A DNA stretch of 64,000 nucleotides, taken from assembly GCA_947503785.1 (NCBI GenBank), contig CANNFB010000003.1, positions 62,001 to 126,000 of the forward strand, given 5' to 3'. The notes under the pieces were generated by a model, which was not told where the DNA came from, did no database searches, and was given only the letters and a program-made list of their open reading frames with translations. Shown here piece by piece: positions 40,483 to 50,963 of the stretch (position 1 is the first letter of the stretch; every line of letters begins with the position of its first letter). A program made the position numbers and the translations under genes. This DNA is from an uncultured Campylobacterales bacterium. Lineage in GTDB: Bacteria; Campylobacterota; Campylobacteria; Campylobacterales; Arcobacteraceae.

Positions 40483-41730
40483 ATGAGTAAAAAAGATGTT
40501 AAAAAAGTAGTTCTAGCTTACAGTGGTGGGCTTGACACTTCTGTTATTTTAAAATGGCTTCAAGATGAATATAATGCTGAAGTTATCACATTTACAGCTG
40601 ATTTAGGTCAAGGTGAAGAAGTTGAACCTGCACGTGAAAAAGCACTTGCAATGGGTATTAAACCTGAAAATATTTTTATATTAGATATTCAAGAAGAGTT
40701 CGTAAAAGATTATGTATTCCCAATGTTTAGAGCAAATGCAATTTATGAAGGTGAATATTTATTAGGAACTTCTATTGCACGTCCTTTAATTTCAAAGAAA
40801 CAAATTGAAATTGCTGAAAAAATGGGTGCAGATGCTGTATCTCATGGTGCTACAGGAAAAGGTAATGACCAAGTTAGATTTGAACTTGGATATTTAGGAT
40901 TAAATCCAGATATTACTGTTATTGCTCCTTGGAGAGAATGGGATTTAAACTCAAGAGAAAAATTACTTTCTTATGCTGCAAAACATGGTATTACAATTGA
41001 TAAAAAACATTTAGATGCAGATGGTAATCCAGCAGTTAGTCCATATTCAATGGATGCTAACCTTTTACATATTTCGTATGAAGGTTTAAGTTTAGAAAAT
41101 CCAAATGCAGAACCTGAAGAATCTATGTGGTTATGGTCAGTCTCTCCTGAAAATGCACCTGATAAGGCTGAATACATTACTATTGGATATAAGAATGGTG
41201 ATCCAATTTCAATTAATGATAAAGAAATGTCACCTGCTACAATTCTAAGAACACTTAATGAATATGGAAATAAGCATGGTATTGGAAGAATTGATATTGT
41301 AGAAAATAGATATGTTGGTATGAAAGCTCGTGGTTGTTATGAAACGCCAGGTGGAACTATTATGCTAAAAGCACATAGAGCAATTGAATCTATTACTTTA
41401 GATAGAGAAGCTGCGCATTTAAAAGATGAATTAATGCCTAAGTATGCAAAATTAATCTACCAAGGTTACTGGTTCTCACCTGAGAGAGAAATGCTTCAAA
41501 CTGCAATTGATTCTACTCAAAAAGATGTTGAAGGTACTGTTAGACTTAAACTTTACAAAGGTAATGTAATTGTTGTAGGACGAGAGTCTGAAAAATCATT
41601 ATTTTCTGAAGCACACTCAACTTTTGAAGAAGATGAAGTTTATAATCAAAAAGATGCAGAAGGATTTATTAGACTTAATGCATTAAGATTTATTATTGCT
41701 GGACAAAATAAAAAATACTATCACTTATAA
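40483..41730 (+). CDS. argG: Argininosuccinate synthase
   Basis: A 415-residue ATP-dependent ligase joining citrulline and aspartate. The PP-loop [17 protein letters not shown] is at residues 9-25; [15 protein letters not shown] is near 115-129 and [14 protein letters not shown] is near 280. It is typical of the bacterial type. It uses citrulline made by ArgF 14 kb upstream. It ends in an intrinsic terminator. Confidence 0.97.
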
Positions 41731-41744
41731 AATATAAAACTTAA

Positions 41745-41773
41745 CAAAAAAGACTAGCTGCTAGTCTTTTTTG
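41745..41773. terminator. Terminator after argG, first copy of a repeated hairpin
   Basis: A 13-base stem with A-rich and T-rich arms around GACTAG / CTAGTC and a three-base loop. Both the plus-strand argG and the minus-strand receptor gene end next to it, so it can serve both. A near-identical hairpin occurs at 44155-44183. Confidence 0.85.
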
Positions 41774-41804: not shown

Positions 41805-43850
41805 CTAAAAATCATAAGAAAGTGTTAAACCAATTGTTCTAGGTGCTCCTGATTGTGTATAAAGTTCATCTGCCCATCCATTAGCAGGGTTGTTTCCAAA
41901 ATAAAATCCACGTACTTCATACTCTTTATTTGCAATATTTCTAATCCATGTTGATATAGTAAATGCCCCATCTGTATATTCTAAACTAGAATTAAAAAGT
42001 TCATAAGAAGCCGATTCTTCATTATGACTATCTGAGAAATAAGTAGATCCTTTTCCTTCAACATTAGCTTTAAATGTCCATGCATCAAAAAAGAAATAAT
42101 CGAAACCTACATTATATTGATAAACAGGTGAATTTGCAGGTGTACGTCCAGACATATCATATCTATCAATCTTATATTCATCAAATTTAGATTTTAATAA
42201 GCCTAGACTTGTATGAATATGTAAAACATCATTTGGATAGTAATCAAGTTGCGATTCTAAACCATAGTATGTTCCTTTTCCTGCATTAGTTAGGTAAGAA
42301 TCCCAAGAATCCCAAGAATTTACGCGTGGAAGATAGTTTTTTACTTGTTGGTCTTTTCTTTTTCCATAGAAAAAATTCAATCTACTTTTAACAATATCAT
42401 CAAAATGACTAGTGTTTAATCCTAAATCTAAATTCCATAAAGCTTCTGTATCATACTTTTTTTGATTAAGGGCTAATCTATTAACAGAATTTACACCACC
42501 GGGTTTATATCCTTTAGAAAGTGTCGTATAAAAAAGACTATTTGATGTAGCTTGATAGTTCAATCCTAGTTTACCACCAAATAAAACTTCATTAGTATCT
42601 ATATTAATATTTGCACTATCATTATAATCTGATTCCCATTTTTCAACTCTTAAACCTGAAATAAATGTTAATTTATCAGTAAAGTGTGTATCTAATTGTC
42701 CATAAATAGCTTTATTTTTAGTTTTATAATTACTATTAAAACTATTATCTTCATTCATTCTCTCACTATAGTCTTTATAATAAGTTCCTACCGTCCAATC
42801 TGTAAGCCCATTAAAAATTCGGCCATCTTGATCTGAAACTAGTCTCATATCAATATCTGTTTGTTTTCTATCTCTAAGATATTCTTTAAATGAACTCCAA
42901 ACAATAGCATTATTATTATACCAATCTTCATCATAACTATATTCTAAATCAGACTTACTATGGCTAAGAGAAGAAATTAAATGCATTTTAGAATTAAGTT
43001 GATAAGTTGATTTTAATGAAAAAGCATTAGTATCTTCTTTATCTTTTCCTGGTTCATCTGAGTATGAGTTTCTAGTGCTATCATACGTCCAGGCATCATA
43101 TCCATTATTAATATTTGTATGATTTATATTCATGTCTACTTGATGGTCATCTGAAGTAAACCATCTAAGATGTGCTTTAGCAGTTAGTTCATCAATATTA
43201 TTTGTATCATCACGTCCTAAATAGATGTTTTTCATATAGCCATCACTTGTATTTTTATACAAAGAAAATCTTGAAAGTAATTTGTTCTCAATTATTGGTG
43301 CATTAATTGCAATACCAACTGCTTTACTATTATAATTTCCTATTGTAGTTTCAATACGTCCACTTGCATCATTTGTAGGTTCATTACTTTGAACATTTAT
43401 AACACCGGCCATTCCATTTGCACCAAAAGTAGTGCCTTGCGGACCTCTTAGTACTTCTACTTGTTTAACATCAAAAAGATTTAATCCTAAGGTACTTTGA
43501 GAATAATCAATCCCATCAGATATTACTCCGACAGATGGATTAGTTGGAGTAGCATATTGACTTCGCTCCCCTATTCCTCTGATTTGAATATATTTTGCTT
43601 TTGATGCACCTGATGAAAAGTTTACGTTTGGAGTTGAGGCTAAAGTTTCAACAAAAGATTTTGAAGCTTTATCGTAAATCTCGCCTTCTCCTATCACAGT
43701 TACACTATTAGTTGTTTGTGACAGCTTCTTTTCTCTAAAATCAGCTCCAACAACAATAGGATCAAGGGTAATAGTTTCTTCTGCAATTGCAGTTGTATTA
43801 AGTGTTGCATAAGATGTAATCATCAATACGTTTAAAATGTTAGATTTCAT
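41805..43850 (-). CDS. TonB-dependent outer-membrane receptor under TPP riboswitch control
   Basis: About 681 residues from the ATG at 43850, which follows AAGGAAAC and gives a signal peptide (MKSNILNVLMITS... TTAIA). The plug domain has LDPIVVGADFREK, VEVLRGPQGTTFGANGMAGVINV and IRGIGERSQYAT. The rest is a beta-barrel ending RTIGLTLSYDF with a terminal Phe. It imports a ligand with TonB energy. The TPP riboswitch directly upstream argues for thiamine or a precursor. A longer in-frame start at 43928 adds a hydrophobic 26-residue leader and is less likely. Confidence 0.9.
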   Translation of the reverse strand: MKSNILNVLMITSYATLNTTAIAEETITLDPIVVGADFREKKLSQTTNSVTVIGEGEIYDKASKSFVETLASTPNVNFSSGASKAKYIQIRGIGERSQYATPTNPSVGVISDGIDYSQSTLGLNLFDVKQVEVLRGPQGTTFGANGMAGVINVQSNEPTNDASGRIETTIGNYNSKAVGIAINAPIIENKLLSRFSLYKNTSDGYMKNIYLGRDDTNNIDELTAKAHLRWFTSDDHQVDMNINHTNINNGYDAWTYDSTRNSYSDEPGKDKEDTNAFSLKSTYQLNSKMHLISSLSHSKSDLEYSYDEDWYNNNAIVWSSFKEYLRDRKQTDIDMRLVSDQDGRIFNGLTDWTVGTYYKDYSERMNEDNSFNSNYKTKNKAIYGQLDTHFTDKLTFISGLRVEKWESDYNDSANINIDTNEVLFGGKLGLNYQATSNSLFYTTLSKGYKPGGVNSVNRLALNQKKYDTEALWNLDLGLNTSHFDDIVKSRLNFFYGKRKDQQVKNYLPRVNSWDSWDSYLTNAGKGTYYGLESQLDYYPNDVLHIHTSLGLLKSKFDEYKIDRYDMSGRTPANSPVYQYNVGFDYFFFDAWTFKANVEGKGSTYFSDSHNEESASYELFNSSLEYTDGAFTISTWIRNIANKEYEVRGFYFGNNPANGWADELYTQSGAPRTIGLTLSYDF

Positions 43851-43929
43851 TGTGTGTTTCCTTAAAATATTAAAAAGGAAAGAGAATATAATTAAATTAA
43901 AAATAAGTGAGTATTCAAAATAAAACATT

Positions 43930-44035
43930 ACTCTTCCCTACGCTGGTATTATCCAGTTCAAGTTCAACGGGTTAAGTATGAATTACTATTCTCAGCTAAA
44001 TCTTAATGATGAAGCACCCCGAGAGTCGAGAGGAT
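43930..44035 (-). promoter_or_regulatory. TPP riboswitch (THI box)
   Basis: Read on the minus strand it has the THI-box core elements in order: CGGGGTGC, GCTGAGAATAG, ACCCGTTGAACTTGAACTGG, ATAATACCAGCGTAGGGAAG. P1 pairs ACTCTC (44026-44021) with AGAGT (43934-43930). It precedes only the TonB receptor gene. The mechanism is uncertain: I see no strong terminator stem between it and the gene. The remaining gap to the receptor ATG is 79 bases. TPP should shut the gene down. Confidence 0.95.
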
Positions 44036-44038
44036 TTT

Positions 44039-44075
44039 ATTATAAGCTATATAAAAATACCCTTAACATATTATA
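44039..44075 (-). promoter_or_regulatory. Candidate -10 elements for the riboswitch transcript
   Basis: Two TATAAT boxes occur on the minus strand, at 44044-44039 and 44075-44070. The nearer one would start transcription close to the first base of the THI box. No clear -35 is visible for either. Which is used cannot be told from sequence. Confidence 0.4.
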
Positions 44076-44154: not shown

Positions 44155-44183
44155 CAAAAAAGACTATTTTTTAGTCTTTTTTG
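44155..44183. terminator. Orphan terminator, second copy of the argG hairpin
   Basis: Stem CAAAAAAGACTA / TAGTCTTTTTTG with a five-T loop, nearly identical to 41745-41773 including flanking ACTTA(A/C). It lies between two divergent genes, so it does not end any gene I can see. The 366-base gap 43929-44294 holds this, the riboswitch and promoters only; I find no ORF in it. Confidence 0.75.
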
Positions 44184-44294: not shown

Positions 44295-45398
44295 ATGGAT
44301 AAGATCATGGAATACTTAAAAGATTTAGAAAAGATTATAAATATCAACTCTTATACTAAAAATAAAGAAGGTGTTGATAATGTTGCTCAGATTATGTCCT
44401 CTTGGCTTAAAGAATTAGGTTTTAATGAAACTACTTATCAAAGAGAAATAATTGGAAACCATCAATTATTTACCACCCAAAGAAAAAAGAATCTAAAAAA
44501 TATTTTATTACTTGGACACAATGATACAGTATTTCCTGCTGGAACATTTGAAGGTTTCACTGAAGATGAAGATTGGGTTTATGGACCTGGTGTTTGTGAT
44601 ATGAAAGGCGGTAATATAGTTGCTCTTGAATCGCTTAGAAACATTTATAAAGATAATAAAAGTATAAGTAATGTTGATTTTCTTTTAGTTTCTGATGAAG
44701 AAAGTGGAAGCGATGATTCAAAACACGTAACATTAGATATTGCAAAAAACTATGATTATTGTTTTGTTTTTGAAGCAGCTGGACCTAATTTAGAAGTAGT
44801 AACCGGAAGAAAAGGTGTTGGAACTTTTACTATATCAATTCAAGGAGTACCTGCACATGCTGGAACTTCTTATTTAAAAGGTATTGATGCAAATTTAGAA
44901 GCTTCCTATAAATTACAAGAACTTTCTAAGCTAACAAATTTAGATTTAGGAACTACTGTAAATGTTGGAAAAATAGAAGGTGGTATTGGTGCAAATACTA
45001 TATCTCCTAAATGTGAAATGTTATTAGAAATAAGATATACAACAAATCAAGAAAGAGATAGATTGCTTTGTGCATTAGATGAAATAACTAATACATCTTA
45101 TGTTAAAGGTACTACTTCTAAACTTAGTGGTTTAATACAAAGAGATGTTATGGAAGCAAATGAAAACCAAGCAATACTTATTAAACAAATAGAAGAGATT
45201 ACACAAACTTCAATTCTTACTGAAAAAAGAGGTGGAGTTAGTGATGCAAATCATGTTTCTAGTTGTGGAGTAACAACAATTGATGGATTTGGTCCATTTG
45301 GTGATGGTGATCATACTAAAAAAGAAAGAGCTTTAAAAGAAAGTTTTAATCATAGAATTAAAATGATGACAGATATTTTAAAACATTTTCAAAAATAG
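44295..45398 (+). CDS. M20-family metallopeptidase, carboxypeptidase G2-like
   Basis: A 367-residue cytoplasmic M20 peptidase with a full set of metal and catalytic motifs. These are LLGHNDTVFP, GPGVCDMKGG (bridging Asp), SDEESGSDD (catalytic Glu and metal Glu), FEAAGPN and GPFGDGDHTKKE (last His). VPAHAGTSY sits in the dimer-lid domain. M20 enzymes release amino acids from amide or peptide bonds; carboxypeptidase G2 removes Glu, and LysK removes lysine from the LysW carrier. It is first of five same-strand genes with two ATP-grasp ligases and an M14 peptidase. Substrate is unknown. Confidence 0.85.
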   Translation: MDKIMEYLKDLEKIININSYTKNKEGVDNVAQIMSSWLKELGFNETTYQREIIGNHQLFTTQRKKNLKNILLLGHNDTVFPAGTFEGFTEDEDWVYGPGVCDMKGGNIVALESLRNIYKDNKSISNVDFLLVSDEESGSDDSKHVTLDIAKNYDYCFVFEAAGPNLEVVTGRKGVGTFTISIQGVPAHAGTSYLKGIDANLEASYKLQELSKLTNLDLGTTVNVGKIEGGIGANTISPKCEMLLEIRYTTNQERDRLLCALDEITNTSYVKGTTSKLSGLIQRDVMEANENQAILIKQIEEITQTSILTEKRGGVSDANHVSSCGVTTIDGFGPFGDGDHTKKERALKESFNHRIKMMTDILKHFQK

Positions 45399-45423
45399 TA
45401 TAATAATTTTTTAAGGGGGCGTT

Positions 45424-46326
45424 ATGGATGAAAGAAGAATTGGTATGTGGTTATATCAAAATGGTGGTGGAGATAAAATCCAAAAAAAGATTATTAAAAA
45501 GTTAAAAGAGAGAGAAATTTCGGTTCTTCCAGGAGTTAATCTAAGAGATGCAATTGCAAAAAATAGTCATATTCTTTGGGAAAAAGAAAAACTTGATAAG
45601 TTAGACCTATTCTTTTCCTATAATGCGGGAGAGCAAACTCAATATCAAATGTATTTAGCAAAAGCATTAAATCATGTAGTTCCAATGATAAACTCATTTG
45701 AAGCTTTAGAATTAACAGAAGATAAGTTTCAAACTTCTTTTTTATTAAGAAGAAATGGTATTCAAACAGCTGATTATAAATTATGTCATAGGGATGATAC
45801 TCATCATTTAAAAACAATAATAAAAAAATGGGATAAAATGGTATATAAACCAACTGATGGTTGGGGTGGAGTTGGTCTTACAAAGATTGAAAACCAAGAG
45901 ACATTAGATATGATTATGCCTTTTTTAAATCAAATGGATTTAAGATACTTTTATGTTGAAAAATTTATTGACTATGATAATACTGATTATAGAGTTGATA
46001 TTGTTGATGGTCAATTTGTTGGTTGTTATGGAAGAAAAGCCTCTGGAACGGATTGGAGAACTAATGTAACAAGCGGTGGTAGTGTTTTTATAAGGGAACC
46101 AAATGATGATGTAATCAATTTGGCACTAAATGCTACTAAAGTTACAGGATTAGATATTTCAGGTGTTGATATTATTTATGATAGAAAAAAAGAGGAATAT
46201 GTAGTTCTTGAAGTAAATGGAATTCCTGCATTTGCAACACCAGAACAAGAAAAAATGGGATTGAATTTTAATGATAAAAAAATTGATCTAATTGTAGATT
46301 TGATAGATAGAAAAACAAAAAAATAA
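45424..46326 (+). CDS. RimK-like ATP-grasp ligase
   Basis: A 300-residue ATP-grasp protein. The nucleotide lysine is in MVYKPTDGWGGVG (near 138-150), FYVEKFIDYDNTDYRVDIV supplies the purine-side residues, and VVLEVNGIPAF holds the metal-binding Glu and Asn. This is the RimK/LysX layout: such enzymes form an amide from an acyl phosphate and an amine. The N-terminal pre-grasp region (GMWLYQNGGGD) is unlike RimK. It has a strong AAGGGGG site and lies 25 bases after the M20 gene. Substrate is unknown. All metal residues look intact. Confidence 0.8.
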   Translation: MDERRIGMWLYQNGGGDKIQKKIIKKLKEREISVLPGVNLRDAIAKNSHILWEKEKLDKLDLFFSYNAGEQTQYQMYLAKALNHVVPMINSFEALELTEDKFQTSFLLRRNGIQTADYKLCHRDDTHHLKTIIKKWDKMVYKPTDGWGGVGLTKIENQETLDMIMPFLNQMDLRYFYVEKFIDYDNTDYRVDIVDGQFVGCYGRKASGTDWRTNVTSGGSVFIREPNDDVINLALNATKVTGLDISGVDIIYDRKKEEYVVLEVNGIPAFATPEQEKMGLNFNDKKIDLIVDLIDRKTKK

Positions 46327-46350
46327 ATTATTACAAAAAAAGGGAAGAAA

Positions 46351-47865
46351 ATGAGTAAATTACCAAAGTTAGGCTTTTTATATATGGATTATGTTTTAAG
46401 ATTTTTTGACTATTCAAACTTTAAAGGATGGCCAAATAAAATTGAAACGGTTACATATCACTGGGGAAAAGATAAACAAAGATTTATCAATGAAGTTAGA
46501 GCTAAGAAAATTGACGTATTAATTGGAAATATTCCAGCGACTGCTTATGAAACATTTAGAGAAATTTCTAATGAACTTCCAAATATAAGATTTGTTCCAT
46601 CATTAGAAACACAGTTCCCAAATAAGTCAAAAGAAAATGTAACACTCTTTTGTGAAAAGCATGATATTGCAATTCCAAAAACAAAGATTTTTCATCAAAA
46701 TAAAGAAAAAGCTTATGATTATTTAAAAAATGAAGCAACATATCCTCAGATTATTAAAAAGTCTTATGGGCCTTCAAATTACGGGGGATACTATGTACAT
46801 AAAGCTGATAATTTCAAAGAAGCATATGATTTATTAGAAAAAGAAAAATATGACCCTATTTATACTCAAAATGGAATTGACTTAAAATTCTCAGGAGATT
46901 TAAGAGTAATGTTAATAGGTCATAAACCTGTTTGTGCTTTCTGGAGATTTTCAGGGGAAGGTGAATGGATAACTAACACTTCTCAAGGTGGAACAATGTC
47001 TTATGAAAATGTTCCAATGAATGCATTAGAGTTAGCGGTTAAAGCTTCTAAAGCTGCAAAAGCTGAGTATTGGGCTTGTGATATTGCAATTGATGCAAAT
47101 GATGATAAGCCATATATTTTAGAATGTGCAACTGCATTTGCTGCTTTTCCATATATTAGAGATTGGATTTGTCAATACTTAATGTGGGACTTTTCAAATG
47201 GTAAATATCAAATACCTCATGTTCCTCTTTACTCATGGATTGAGTTAGGTAAAATTGATCCATCATTATTAAGAACAATGAGACATATAGGATTTAGTAA
47301 ATATAAACCATCTTGTGATGGATCATTTTTCATAAATGAAAAAGATGATTCTTTTGATATGGAAAAAACTTTATTAAATGATCCAAGTGATTATCCAGAA
47401 GAGTATTCTTATGATAAATTGCCACAATATGTACAACTTGAAGATATTCAAACTAAAGATATTAAAAATGAAGTAGAAATTAATAGAATTAACTTTAACA
47501 CTGCTTCTTTAACAGATTTAATGACACTTCATGGAATGGAAGATGAACTAGCTATTGAGATTATGGAGTTTAAAGAGAATAATACAATTACAGATGCAAG
47601 TGATTTATTAGAATTAGAATCAATTGATGAACAAATGATTGAAACTTGGAATGAAAATATTACTGATATGAGAGTTGATATAAATGATGCAGATGAAAAT
47701 ACTTTAAAGAAAATAAAAGGTATTGGTGCTAAACTTGCAAAAATCATTTTAGATTTCAAAGATAAAATTGAAAAATTTACAGATTTAGACCAGTTAAAAG
47801 ATATTGAAGGAATTGGAAAAAGTAAATTTAATCAATTAAAATCTAGACTAAAAATAGGAGAATAA
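46351..47865 (+). CDS. ATP-grasp protein fused to two helix-hairpin-helix units
   Basis: A 504-residue fusion. Residues 1 to about 330 are ATP-grasp-like: PQIIKKSYGPSNYGGYYV, LKFSGDLRVMLIG and ILECATAFAAF. In the last motif the usual metal-binding Asn of E-x-N is replaced by Ala, unlike the preceding gene. Residues about 385-504 are two ComEA-type (HhH)2 units beginning INFNTASLTDL and VDINDADENTL, the second with IKGIGAKLAKIIL and IEGIGKSKFNQLK. Such units normally bind DNA non-specifically or mediate protein contacts. The stop lies three bases before the M14 gene. The combination is unusual; I do not know it from any named family. Confidence 0.75.
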   Translation: MSKLPKLGFLYMDYVLRFFDYSNFKGWPNKIETVTYHWGKDKQRFINEVRAKKIDVLIGNIPATAYETFREISNELPNIRFVPSLETQFPNKSKENVTLFCEKHDIAIPKTKIFHQNKEKAYDYLKNEATYPQIIKKSYGPSNYGGYYVHKADNFKEAYDLLEKEKYDPIYTQNGIDLKFSGDLRVMLIGHKPVCAFWRFSGEGEWITNTSQGGTMSYENVPMNALELAVKASKAAKAEYWACDIAIDANDDKPYILECATAFAAFPYIRDWICQYLMWDFSNGKYQIPHVPLYSWIELGKIDPSLLRTMRHIGFSKYKPSCDGSFFINEKDDSFDMEKTLLNDPSDYPEEYSYDKLPQYVQLEDIQTKDIKNEVEINRINFNTASLTDLMTLHGMEDELAIEIMEFKENNTITDASDLLELESIDEQMIETWNENITDMRVDINDADENTLKKIKGIGAKLAKIILDFKDKIEKFTDLDQLKDIEGIGKSKFNQLKSRLKIGE

Positions 47866-47868
47866 TTT

Positions 47869-50454
47869 TTGAAACAACTTTATAGATCATATAATGAGTC
47901 TACTGATATTTTCAAAGATCTAGAAAATAAATACTCTAACTATATTAAGTTAGAGTCAATTGGAAAAACTTGGGAAAAAAGAGATATTAATTTAATTACT
48001 ATCTCTAAAGATATTAAGACAGCACATACTAGACCTGCATTGTTTTTTACAGGAACTATACATGCAAGAGAATGGGTAGGACATGAAGTAGCAATTGAGT
48101 TTGCAAAATATGTATTAGAAAACTATGAAAATGATCCTACTATTCAATCATACTTAGAAAACACAACTATATATATGGTTCCTTGTGCAAATCCTGATGG
48201 ATATGAATACTCAAAGAACCACTTCTCTTTTTGGAGAAAAAATAGACGTGTAAATGTAGATGGAACTTATGGAGTAGATTTAAATAGAAACTTCCCAATA
48301 GGTTATGTAAAATCTTCAATTCCCTCATCAAATGTATATGGTGGCCCAGAACCATTTTCAGAACCAGAAACTAGAGCATTAAGAGATTTCGTTGAAGCTC
48401 ATGACAATATTTGTATTGCATTAGATTATCATTCACAAGGAAATGTATTTTTCCCTGCTCATGATTTTAGACATGAAGATACAATTGATACAACTGATAT
48501 GAATACTTTATGTGCAAATATGGCAGATGAGATTAAAAAAATATCAGGTAGAGAATATGGTATTCATCAAGGGAAGCCACCTACTAAACTTATTTCTGGT
48601 TCAGGAAGAGAATTCTATTATTCAAAAGGTATTATTGCTAGTGTTGTAGAAGTTGGTACTCGAAATATATCTGATTATATGGATGATATGGATGAGCATT
48701 TAAGAGAGCATATTCCAGCTTTATTAGCAGCAGTTAAAGAAGTTCCTAATTATGATAAAAATAATAAAATCAAAAGAGTTGATTCTTTTGAAATTACAGA
48801 AATTGGTTCAAACCATGCAAATCTAAAATGGAAATATTCAAGTGAAGAAGAAGTTTTCTTTGAAATATATAGAAGCTTAAAAAATAAATCATTTTGTAAT
48901 AGTTCAAACTTAATTGCACGTACACAAAACCTAGAATTTAGTGATATTAACCTGCAAAGCAATAAAGATTATTATTATAACATTAGAGTAGTAAATAAAA
49001 AAACAAATATAAAATCACCATTTTATCCTCAAATTGTGCTTAGAACTGATCCTGAATATGATGAATTTTCTAGAACATACTATGCATCATCAAAGGAAAC
49101 AGGATATGTAGCTGAAAATATAAATGACAATGCTAAACACTTTGGTATTAACTCTCTATTTGTAGGAGTTGATGAAAATAAAGGTGTTTCCTATGCAATT
49201 GTTACTATTAATGTATCATCACTTCCTGAAGATGCAATTATTAAATCAGCAAATGTAAATCTTTATCCAATTAATAGAGTTTCTACTACTATTGAGAAAT
49301 ATGGTGAATGGAATGTTGGTATAGTTGACCAAGATACAATGGGAGATATTACAGATTTTGATGATGTTGATAATATGAAAATACTACAATATATTGGAAG
49401 ACCTACATCATCTGATAAATTAACGCAAGGTATTTGGAGAACATGGGAACTTTCAGGAATCGAATGTGAATGTTTAGAAGAAGTTGCAAAAAATGGAAAA
49501 GTTGTTTTAAGAGTTGAAGGACCTAAAGAGTTAATTATAGGTAGAACAAGACAAATGATGCAATGGGATATTGGATATGGAAAATTCGGTTATGGATTAC
49601 CTTTTAGACCAAGAATTGAACTTACATATACAATTAAACCAACAATTACAACTTTATACCCAAAAGCTTTATATACCTTAAGTAAAGATGGAATTACAAA
49701 TGACGAATTAATTTCAGGTTATGATGATCAAGGAAGTAAGATTTATTCTACTTTTGAATTTAATATTTCATCACTTCCCCCTTATAATGAAACTTTTATA
49801 ACTAGAGCTTATTTTGAGTTAAACTCTACAAAAATTTATATTAAAGATGATATTAGATTTCATTTAGAGTTTGTTGATGAAAATATTGATAAAGATTACG
49901 AGGGTATTGTAAATAGAGAAATTATTCAAAACATTGGTTATGATGTAAGTGCGAATGAACTTAAAAACAATCAAACTCAATATTTTGCTTTTGATACTTT
50001 TTCAGAAATCACTTTAAATGAAAAACTTAAAAATAAAAGTGATGTTGCTTTTGTTTTAAGACCTACTTCATCTAGAAAAGCAAATAAAAGTAAAACTGTA
50101 TCTTGGGAAACAAAAAATCAATCCTTAAGTCCAAAACTTATAATTGAACATATTCCAAAAAGAAGAGAAGCTTTACCACCAGTTGAAAATGCTCAATTAA
50201 TAAATGAAAATGGGAAAATTAAAATTACTTGGACAAATCCTAAAGATAGGGATTTAAAAGGTGTAAAAGTTATGAAAAATGCATATAGAAAGCCCTATTC
50301 TACTCACGATGGTCAAAAACTTTTCGCGGGAATGGCAGATTATACATTTGACGATTTTGGGGCTTTAGATATTGATAAATATTATGCTATTTTTACTTAT
50401 GATGAAGTTCCAAATTATTCTGAACCTGTAATATTAAAATATACTGCAAGATAG
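47869..50454 (+). CDS. M14 zinc carboxypeptidase with FN3-like and DNRLRE-like modules
   Basis: An 861-residue protein starting with TTG after AGGAGAATAATT. The M14 domain is at about residues 1-300, with zinc ligands in GTIHAREWVGHE and ALDYHSQG, substrate residues in PCANPDGYEY and VDLNRNF, and catalytic Glu in ASVVEVGTRN. After it come an FN3-like module (about 305-395), two DNRLRE-like modules (about 400-590 and 595-765, each with a XIxxA(N/Y)xxL strand) and a final FN3-like one. These modules are normally extracellular, yet no signal peptide is visible. It sits between an ATP-grasp gene and a hexapeptide gene. It removes C-terminal residues from an unknown substrate. Confidence 0.82.
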   Translation: MKQLYRSYNESTDIFKDLENKYSNYIKLESIGKTWEKRDINLITISKDIKTAHTRPALFFTGTIHAREWVGHEVAIEFAKYVLENYENDPTIQSYLENTTIYMVPCANPDGYEYSKNHFSFWRKNRRVNVDGTYGVDLNRNFPIGYVKSSIPSSNVYGGPEPFSEPETRALRDFVEAHDNICIALDYHSQGNVFFPAHDFRHEDTIDTTDMNTLCANMADEIKKISGREYGIHQGKPPTKLISGSGREFYYSKGIIASVVEVGTRNISDYMDDMDEHLREHIPALLAAVKEVPNYDKNNKIKRVDSFEITEIGSNHANLKWKYSSEEEVFFEIYRSLKNKSFCNSSNLIARTQNLEFSDINLQSNKDYYYNIRVVNKKTNIKSPFYPQIVLRTDPEYDEFSRTYYASSKETGYVAENINDNAKHFGINSLFVGVDENKGVSYAIVTINVSSLPEDAIIKSANVNLYPINRVSTTIEKYGEWNVGIVDQDTMGDITDFDDVDNMKILQYIGRPTSSDKLTQGIWRTWELSGIECECLEEVAKNGKVVLRVEGPKELIIGRTRQMMQWDIGYGKFGYGLPFRPRIELTYTIKPTITTLYPKALYTLSKDGITNDELISGYDDQGSKIYSTFEFNISSLPPYNETFITRAYFELNSTKIYIKDDIRFHLEFVDENIDKDYEGIVNREIIQNIGYDVSANELKNNQTQYFAFDTFSEITLNEKLKNKSDVAFVLRPTSSRKANKSKTVSWETKNQSLSPKLIIEHIPKRREALPPVENAQLINENGKIKITWTNPKDRDLKGVKVMKNAYRKPYSTHDGQKLFAGMADYTFDDFGALDIDKYYAIFTYDEVPNYSEPVILKYTAR

Positions 50455-50462
50455 GAAGAGTT

Positions 50463-50963
50463 ATGATTTTAAAGTTTAAAGAATACTACCCACAAATTCA
50501 TCCTAGTGCTTGGATTGCTCCAAGTGCTGATGTAATTGGACAAGCTACAATTGGTGAAAATTCATCTGTTTGGTTTCAATGTGTACTAAGATCAGATGTA
50601 AATAAAATTATCATTGGTAAAAACTCTAATATTCAAGATTTATCAATGATTCATACAGATATTAACTCTCAAACAATAATTGGGGATAATGTGACAATTG
50701 GACATAAGGTTATGCTTCATGGTTGTAAAATTGAAGATAACTGTTTAATTGGTATGAGTGCAACTATTTTAGATAATGCTATAATTGGGAAAGGTTCTAT
50801 TGTTGGAGCTAATTCACTTGTAACTGCTGGAAAAGTATTTCCACCTAATTCTTTAATTATGGGAAGTCCTGCTAAAGTTGTAAAACAACTGACATTTGAA
50901 GATGAGCAAGGTTTAATAAAACATGCTGCTCATTATGTAGATTCTAAAAACGATTATTCTTAA
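50463..50963 (+). CDS. Gamma-carbonic-anhydrase-type hexapeptide repeat protein
   Basis: A 166-residue left-handed beta-helix protein of the YrdA/CaiE/PaaY type. The three metal-type His residues are present: MIHTDI, then IGHKVMLHGC. Repeats such as IGENSSVWF and IIGKNSNIQD are visible, with LIMGSPAKVVKQL at the end. Members may be zinc enzymes (carbonic anhydrase or thioesterase-like) or acyltransferase relatives. Eight bases after the M14 gene, it may belong to the same pathway or just share the transcript. A terminator follows. Confidence 0.85.
   Translation: MILKFKEYYPQIHPSAWIAPSADVIGQATIGENSSVWFQCVLRSDVNKIIIGKNSNIQDLSMIHTDINSQTIIGDNVTIGHKVMLHGCKIEDNCLIGMSATILDNAIIGKGSIVGANSLVTAGKVFPPNSLIMGSPAKVVKQLTFEDEQGLIKHAAHYVDSKNDYS

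Follow-up and report, generated by a model that had tools for sequence, protein, structure and literature searches.

A gene for a TonB-dependent receptor in a genome of the genus Poseidonibacter (Arcobacteraceae, Campylobacterota; 2.76 Mb) very probably encodes an outer-membrane importer of thiamine, possibly also of thiamine phosphates, that is driven by TonB and whose translation is shut off by thiamine pyrophosphate (TPP). The gene lies in a stretch of 64 kb, referred to here as the window, and several computed elements bear on its role: an aptamer, the fold of the receptor, the conserved linkage of the two, the partner genes and the alternative pairings available to the leader. The locus is organised as follows.

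40483-41730, plus strand: argG, neighbour gene converging on the 3′ end of the receptor gene
41748-41770, no strand assigned: terminator-like palindrome in the gap where argG and the receptor gene converge (found by pattern search; chance expectation 0)
41805-43850, minus strand: TonB-dependent receptor, 681 aa (Pfam Plug and barrel domains, AlphaFold model, FyuA match)
43850-43848, minus strand: start codon ATG of the receptor, downstream of the Shine-Dalgarno (SD) sequence AAGGAAA
43918-44031, minus strand: full-length TPP riboswitch aptamer (cmscan 74.7 bits, RF00059)
44039-44044, minus strand: candidate -10 box TATAAT, 7 nt ahead of the aptamer (by eye)
44097-44070, minus strand: alternative promoter-like site (by eye)
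44295 (start), plus strand: M20 peptidase gene, neighbour divergent from the receptor

The comparison of the window with all Rfam 15 families by cmscan gave a single match at the gathering level, the TPP aptamer RF00059, at 44031-43918 on the minus strand (E 7.2e-13; gathering cut-off 54.3 bits). An earlier note on this DNA had described a complete THI box at 43850-44035, directly preceding the receptor gene and no other. The alignment bears this out, since it spans model positions 1-105 of 105 at 74.7 bits, and the interval named corresponds to the aptamer plus the leader as far as the ATG. The exclusive position was also confirmed: argG is convergent, the M20 peptidase gene is divergent, and the receptor is the sole gene behind this riboswitch in the host genome. 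The aptamer is separated from the ATG by 67 nt. The longest open frame of the receptor reaches 43928, a start inside the aptamer; 43850 was taken as the receptor start because an SD sequence lies ahead of it and the same start is conserved in relatives. The promoter scan found no more promoter-like sites near the receptor leader than in shuffled sequences.

Two further features of the surroundings deserve mention. The terminator-like palindrome, AAAAGACTA...TAGTCTTTT, occurs twice, at 41748-41770 and at 44158-44180, where none is expected in shuffles, and the second copy is oddly placed, in the interval that separates the riboswitch from the divergently oriented M20 peptidase gene. Beyond it, the M20 peptidase gene opens a cluster at 44295-50963 that also encodes a pair of ATP-grasp ligases of the RimK type (one carries an HhH domain), an M14 carboxypeptidase and a protein with hexapeptide repeats. 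The cluster resembles a set for peptide tailing or peptide processing, and its first genes adjoin the receptor in two congeners too.

The receptor protein contains a Plug domain (PF07715, 62.4 bits) and a barrel domain (PF00593, 93.4 bits), both far above the Pfam cut-offs. Inspection by eye revealed an apparent signal peptide at about residues 1-23, followed by the TonB-box-like stretch ETITLDPIVV, and both the signal peptide and an ITLDPIVV-type box are largely kept in relatives. The receptor is predicted to depend on TonB, and the host genome encodes two TonB_C proteins. The AlphaFold model, built with 41 orthologs, is a barrel (pLDDT 86, pTM 0.87) whose best match among solved structures is FyuA (E 2.5e-37, 21% identity), followed by siderophore receptors; PqqU, a cofactor receptor, ranks 8th and BtuB 45th, and no solved thiamine receptor appears among the best 50 fold matches. 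Fold and sequence indicate a TonB receptor without naming its cargo. Because the nearest solved structures are siderophore receptors, and because the best NCBIfam model for the protein is TonB-siderophore, it could be argued that the receptor takes up a metal chelate and that the riboswitch is tied to the metal demand of thiamine synthesis, in which ThiC carries an iron-sulfur cluster; a Nramp-like gene at the end of another TPP operon of the host would fit this idea. However, FyuA shares just 21% identity with the protein and is simply the closest receptor with a solved structure, and the genes that neighbour the receptor across phyla encode thiamine permeases and kinases and no siderophore functions. 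Assignment to the siderophore receptors (TIGR01783) was rejected on the latter ground and on the score of 125.6 bits, well short of the 223.5 that the model requires, and uptake of a metal chelate appears very improbable. A thiamine importer remains the preferred reading.

The association between aptamer and receptor is conserved. Among 104 Arcobacteraceae genomes, receptor orthologs (55-90% identity) were found in five, all of them Poseidonibacter and including that of the window, and the aptamer precedes the receptor in all five. The receptor is accessory, given that 5 of the 10 Poseidonibacter genomes lack it. About 70 other TonB receptors occur in Arcobacteraceae, at most about 33% identical, and a comparison of coordinate lists placed none of them near a TPP match. 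Relatives in public genomes include that of Poseidonibacter lekithochrous A1R12. The scan of public genomes kept 80 receptor loci, mostly from Sulfurovum and related Campylobacterota (51-71% identity), with Gammaproteobacteria in addition (33-46%). A TPP aptamer is present in the genomes of 79 of them. At 67 of the 80 loci it shares the strand of the receptor and precedes it by 36-292 nt; 77 of the 80 had upstream DNA to check and three held almost none. These figures are counts and not probabilities, since related loci are not independent of one another. An evenly drawn sample of the phylum, 397 Campylobacterota genomes, contains nine with the receptor, eight of them with the aptamer 47-97 nt upstream. 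At the exceptional loci L144, L152, L103, L088 and L126, no sub-threshold aptamer was found ahead of the receptor down to an E value of 5. Two of these, L088 and L126, have the receptor about 100 nt behind thiG, so it looks like part of a thi operon. The Pseudoalteromonas orthologs (L144, L145, L146, L151, L152 and L155) have no aptamer of their own, and the single TPP riboswitch of the genome controls a divergent thiC operon about 1.1 kb from the receptor. In many of the wider loci, thiC-thiO-thiG lie just upstream of the receptor.

The host genome contains three TPP riboswitches. Besides that of the receptor, one precedes thiC-thiO-thiG-thiE and another is located between thiZ-thiX and tenA-thiY-thiM-thiD-thiE. 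These riboswitch-linked gene sets imply that the host is able to make both thiamine moieties. The ThiXYZ/TenA operon, whose ThiY is of the NMT1 type, serves salvage of the pyrimidine (HMP) and is separate from the receptor locus. At L032:5216-6854, thiZ and thiX stand ahead of the aptamer and tenA and thiY behind it, so that this riboswitch does not directly control the permease and the ATPase of ThiXYZ unless they are transcribed through. The tenA-thiY-thiM-thiD-thiE operon is closed by a divergent transporter of the Nramp family (PF01566, 34.5 bits; L032:10854-12059), possibly involved in metal or precursor transport. As regards intact thiamine, thiB, thiP and thiQ are on a contig other than that of the receptor, outside its operon and with no TPP aptamer of their own, and ThiB scores above the equivalog cut-off. 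The host also has ThiL-like proteins and a kinase that shares 38% identity with the ThiK-like kinases of the receptor operons of relatives. No thiamine pyrophosphokinase (PF04263) was found in Poseidonibacter.

Evidence on the cargo that is independent of the riboswitch came from the genes next to the receptor in other genomes. In two other Poseidonibacter genomes, the riboswitch, the receptor, thiB and thiP form an operon, in which thiQ comes next at L042, and the two ThiB proteins score 375 and 365 bits against an equivalog cut-off of 317. Partner genes were counted within 1.5 kb downstream of the receptor at the 71 of the 80 loci that have at least 900 nt of downstream DNA. At 57 of these there is either thiB (17) or a gene of the PnuC/PnuT family (40), while a YkoF-like protein, of a thiamine-binding type, is encoded at 37 and a ThiK-like APH kinase at 42. 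The permease of the relatives exceeds 170 bits for PF04973 and, judging from its genomic context, is probably PnuT, for thiamine, rather than PnuC. All 18 of 18 members of the small YkoF-like group match the Ykof family (best E 6.6e-6); the Poseidonibacter protein taken alone falls just below the cut-off. These are single-domain proteins of 84-94 aa with no obvious signal peptide (for instance L040:2488-2766, with 33 relatives), and at about half of the loci their gene separates the receptor from pnuT or thiB. ThiB itself is present in 5 of 5 receptor genomes versus 10 of 104 Arcobacteraceae overall, a co-occurrence that would have a probability of about 3e-6 were the genomes independent, which they are not.

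Taken from sequence, this partner-gene evidence supports thiamine as the probable cargo. A TPP riboswitch by itself cannot separate thiamine from its precursors, and an alternative is that the receptor takes up a substance from which thiamine is made or into which it decays (HMP, formylaminopyrimidine or a thiazole) and that the riboswitch controls salvage. The host does possess ThiY, ThiX, ThiZ and TenA under another TPP riboswitch, and at L123 and L125 thiC, not a thiamine permease gene, is the first thiamine gene downstream of the receptor. Yet thiXYZ was seen behind the receptor at no locus, and the host has ThiC, by which it makes its own HMP. HMP is also an unlikely cargo because the conserved partners, ThiBPQ and the PnuT-, YkoF- and ThiK-like proteins, act on intact thiamine or its phosphates; for this reason a receptor for HMP or formylaminopyrimidine was downgraded, and uptake of any such precursor or breakdown product is considered improbable. 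With fair confidence, the ligand would be thiamine or its phosphates rather than HMP. The earlier note had proposed an importer of thiamine, TPP or a precursor such as HMP. Thiamine and its phosphates gain from the partner genes, whereas HMP, which the ThiC and ThiXYZ/TenA operons supply, loses ground.

The leader contains the elements of a predicted translational switch, all on the minus strand.

43931-43939, minus strand: AGGGAAGAG, 3′ end of the aptamer core including the 3′ strand of P1, and alternative partner of the linker (Rfam alignment, ligand-free fold)
43876-43884, minus strand: CUCUUUCCU, the linker, putative anti-SD and anti-P1 strand of the expression platform (duplex energies, behaviour kept in relatives)
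43857-43863, minus strand: SD sequence AAGGAAA of the receptor gene (sequence; sequestered when the linker is folded without the aptamer)

In the ligand-free minimum-energy fold, AGGGAAGAG (43939-43931) pairs with the linker CUCUUUCCU (43884-43876), whereas leaving the aptamer out of the fold makes the SD sequence the partner of the linker. The duplex energies of the linker are -14.6 kcal/mol with the 3′ end of the aptamer and -6.6 kcal/mol with the SD sequence, and the SD-sequestering hairpin is weak in the leader of the window (-5 kcal/mol). Both pairings were compared with dinucleotide shuffles in 44 distinct Campylobacterota leaders. Pairing of the linker with the P1 3′ strand was much stronger than in the shuffles (Stouffer Z 9.8) and reached p ≤ 0.05 individually in 23 of the 44 leaders; pairing with the SD sequence was moderately stronger (Z 4.7), and 8 of the 44 passed individually. 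Own partners outpaired those swapped between species (p 0.009 for the P1 3′ strand and 0.03 for the SD sequence in the 44 leaders), and the P1 swap test on the full set of 60 leaders gave p 2e-5. For the leader of the window alone, neither pairing passes 0.05. A purpose-built covariance model held 8 base pairs only and was left out. The expression platform is thus exclusive with P1, in that the P1 3′ strand and the SD sequence are alternative partners of one shared linker, a choice that is kept in relatives. This pattern fits a translational OFF switch, as predicted from these pairings, the SD half of the argument being the weaker one. TPP riboswitches of the termination type exist alongside those of the translational type, and the linker is U-rich, so the aptamer might act through transcription termination or transcript decay instead of translational masking. 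Against this, no terminator-like site was found between the aptamer and the ATG, on which ground a transcription-terminator platform was rejected, and pairing between linker and SD sequence is above chance in relatives; termination or decay is accordingly judged unlikely.

A translational switch serving thiamine import would work as follows. At low cytoplasmic TPP, the P1 3′ strand of the aptamer would pair with the CUCUUUCCU linker, leaving the SD site free, and the receptor would be made. It would then carry scarce thiamine over the outer membrane with energy from TonB; ThiB would bind thiamine in the periplasm, ThiPQ would move it into the cell, and the ThiK-like kinase together with ThiL would convert it to TPP. 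At high TPP, the RNA, predicted to bind this ligand, would hold P1 closed, the linker would pair with the SD site and receptor synthesis would stop. A broader proposal is offered tentatively, as a possibility that is rather doubtful at present: that Campylobacterota and some sulfur-oxidising Gammaproteobacteria share a distinct receptor lineage within a full thiamine import operon (receptor, single-domain YkoF-like protein, interchangeable ThiBPQ or PnuT, thiamine kinase) under one translational TPP switch, with a thiamine specificity of separate origin from that of Bacteroides OMthi.

General models label this receptor family as siderophore receptors; the predicted cargo would apply to it in many sulfur-oxidising Campylobacterota and some Gammaproteobacteria. 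Many carriers of the receptor retain thiamine synthesis and would nonetheless maintain high-affinity uptake as well, a combination relevant to how vitamins are exchanged in marine and vent communities. For ligand testing in cultured Poseidonibacter, the receptor-ThiBPQ operon offers a simple handle.

A familiar parallel is BtuB, an outer-membrane TonB-dependent vitamin receptor controlled by a vitamin-sensing leader RNA, the cobalamin riboswitch. BtuB pairs with the ABC importer BtuFCD (PMC6977713). Both systems would join a vitamin-sensing leader, a TonB-dependent receptor and an ABC importer; they differ in the vitamin, in the aptamer class and in the receptor family (BtuB being 45th in the fold search). 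The enterobacterial ThiBPQ is the same inner-membrane system as that which follows the receptor in relatives. To our knowledge, the enterobacterial system has no TonB receptor part. The earlier note knew of no well-characterised thiamine TonB receptor in this lineage; this holds for the open-access literature, in which no earlier description of a Campylobacterota thiamine receptor was found, and the thiC TPP riboswitch is the only one described in C. jejuni (PMC3847290). Elsewhere, predicted thiamine receptors fall into several clusters, with function predicted only (PMC2771747), and a Variovorax operon includes another (PMC10409787). Closest in description is OMthi (BT2390) of B. thetaiotaomicron, likewise a TonB-type receptor under a TPP riboswitch, which works with the PnuT permease; when a biosynthesis mutant also lacks OMthi, its EC50 for thiamine increases from 2.8 to 15.8 nM (PMC5613172). 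The two are likened by description, OMthi belongs to another phylum, and the Poseidonibacter relatives have ThiBPQ instead of PnuT as the partner at the inner membrane. Shewanella oneidensis SO2715, listed as a TonB receptor with a TPP riboswitch (PMC2659441), and omr1, with a riboswitch nearby in SAR86 and Flavobacteriales (PMC10881298), resemble the present receptor in being TonB-dependent, with a TPP riboswitch ahead or nearby and predicted thiamine transport (PMC2659441; PMC10881298). They come from different taxa and are again likened by description, although relatives of the receptor with 33-46% identity do occur in Gammaproteobacteria. In conclusion, the arrangement is already known from B. 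thetaiotaomicron OMthi, with genetic evidence, from Shewanella SO2715 and from the marine omr1, and the most distinctive point of the system described here is the operon of receptor, YkoF, ThiBPQ or PnuT, and kinase.
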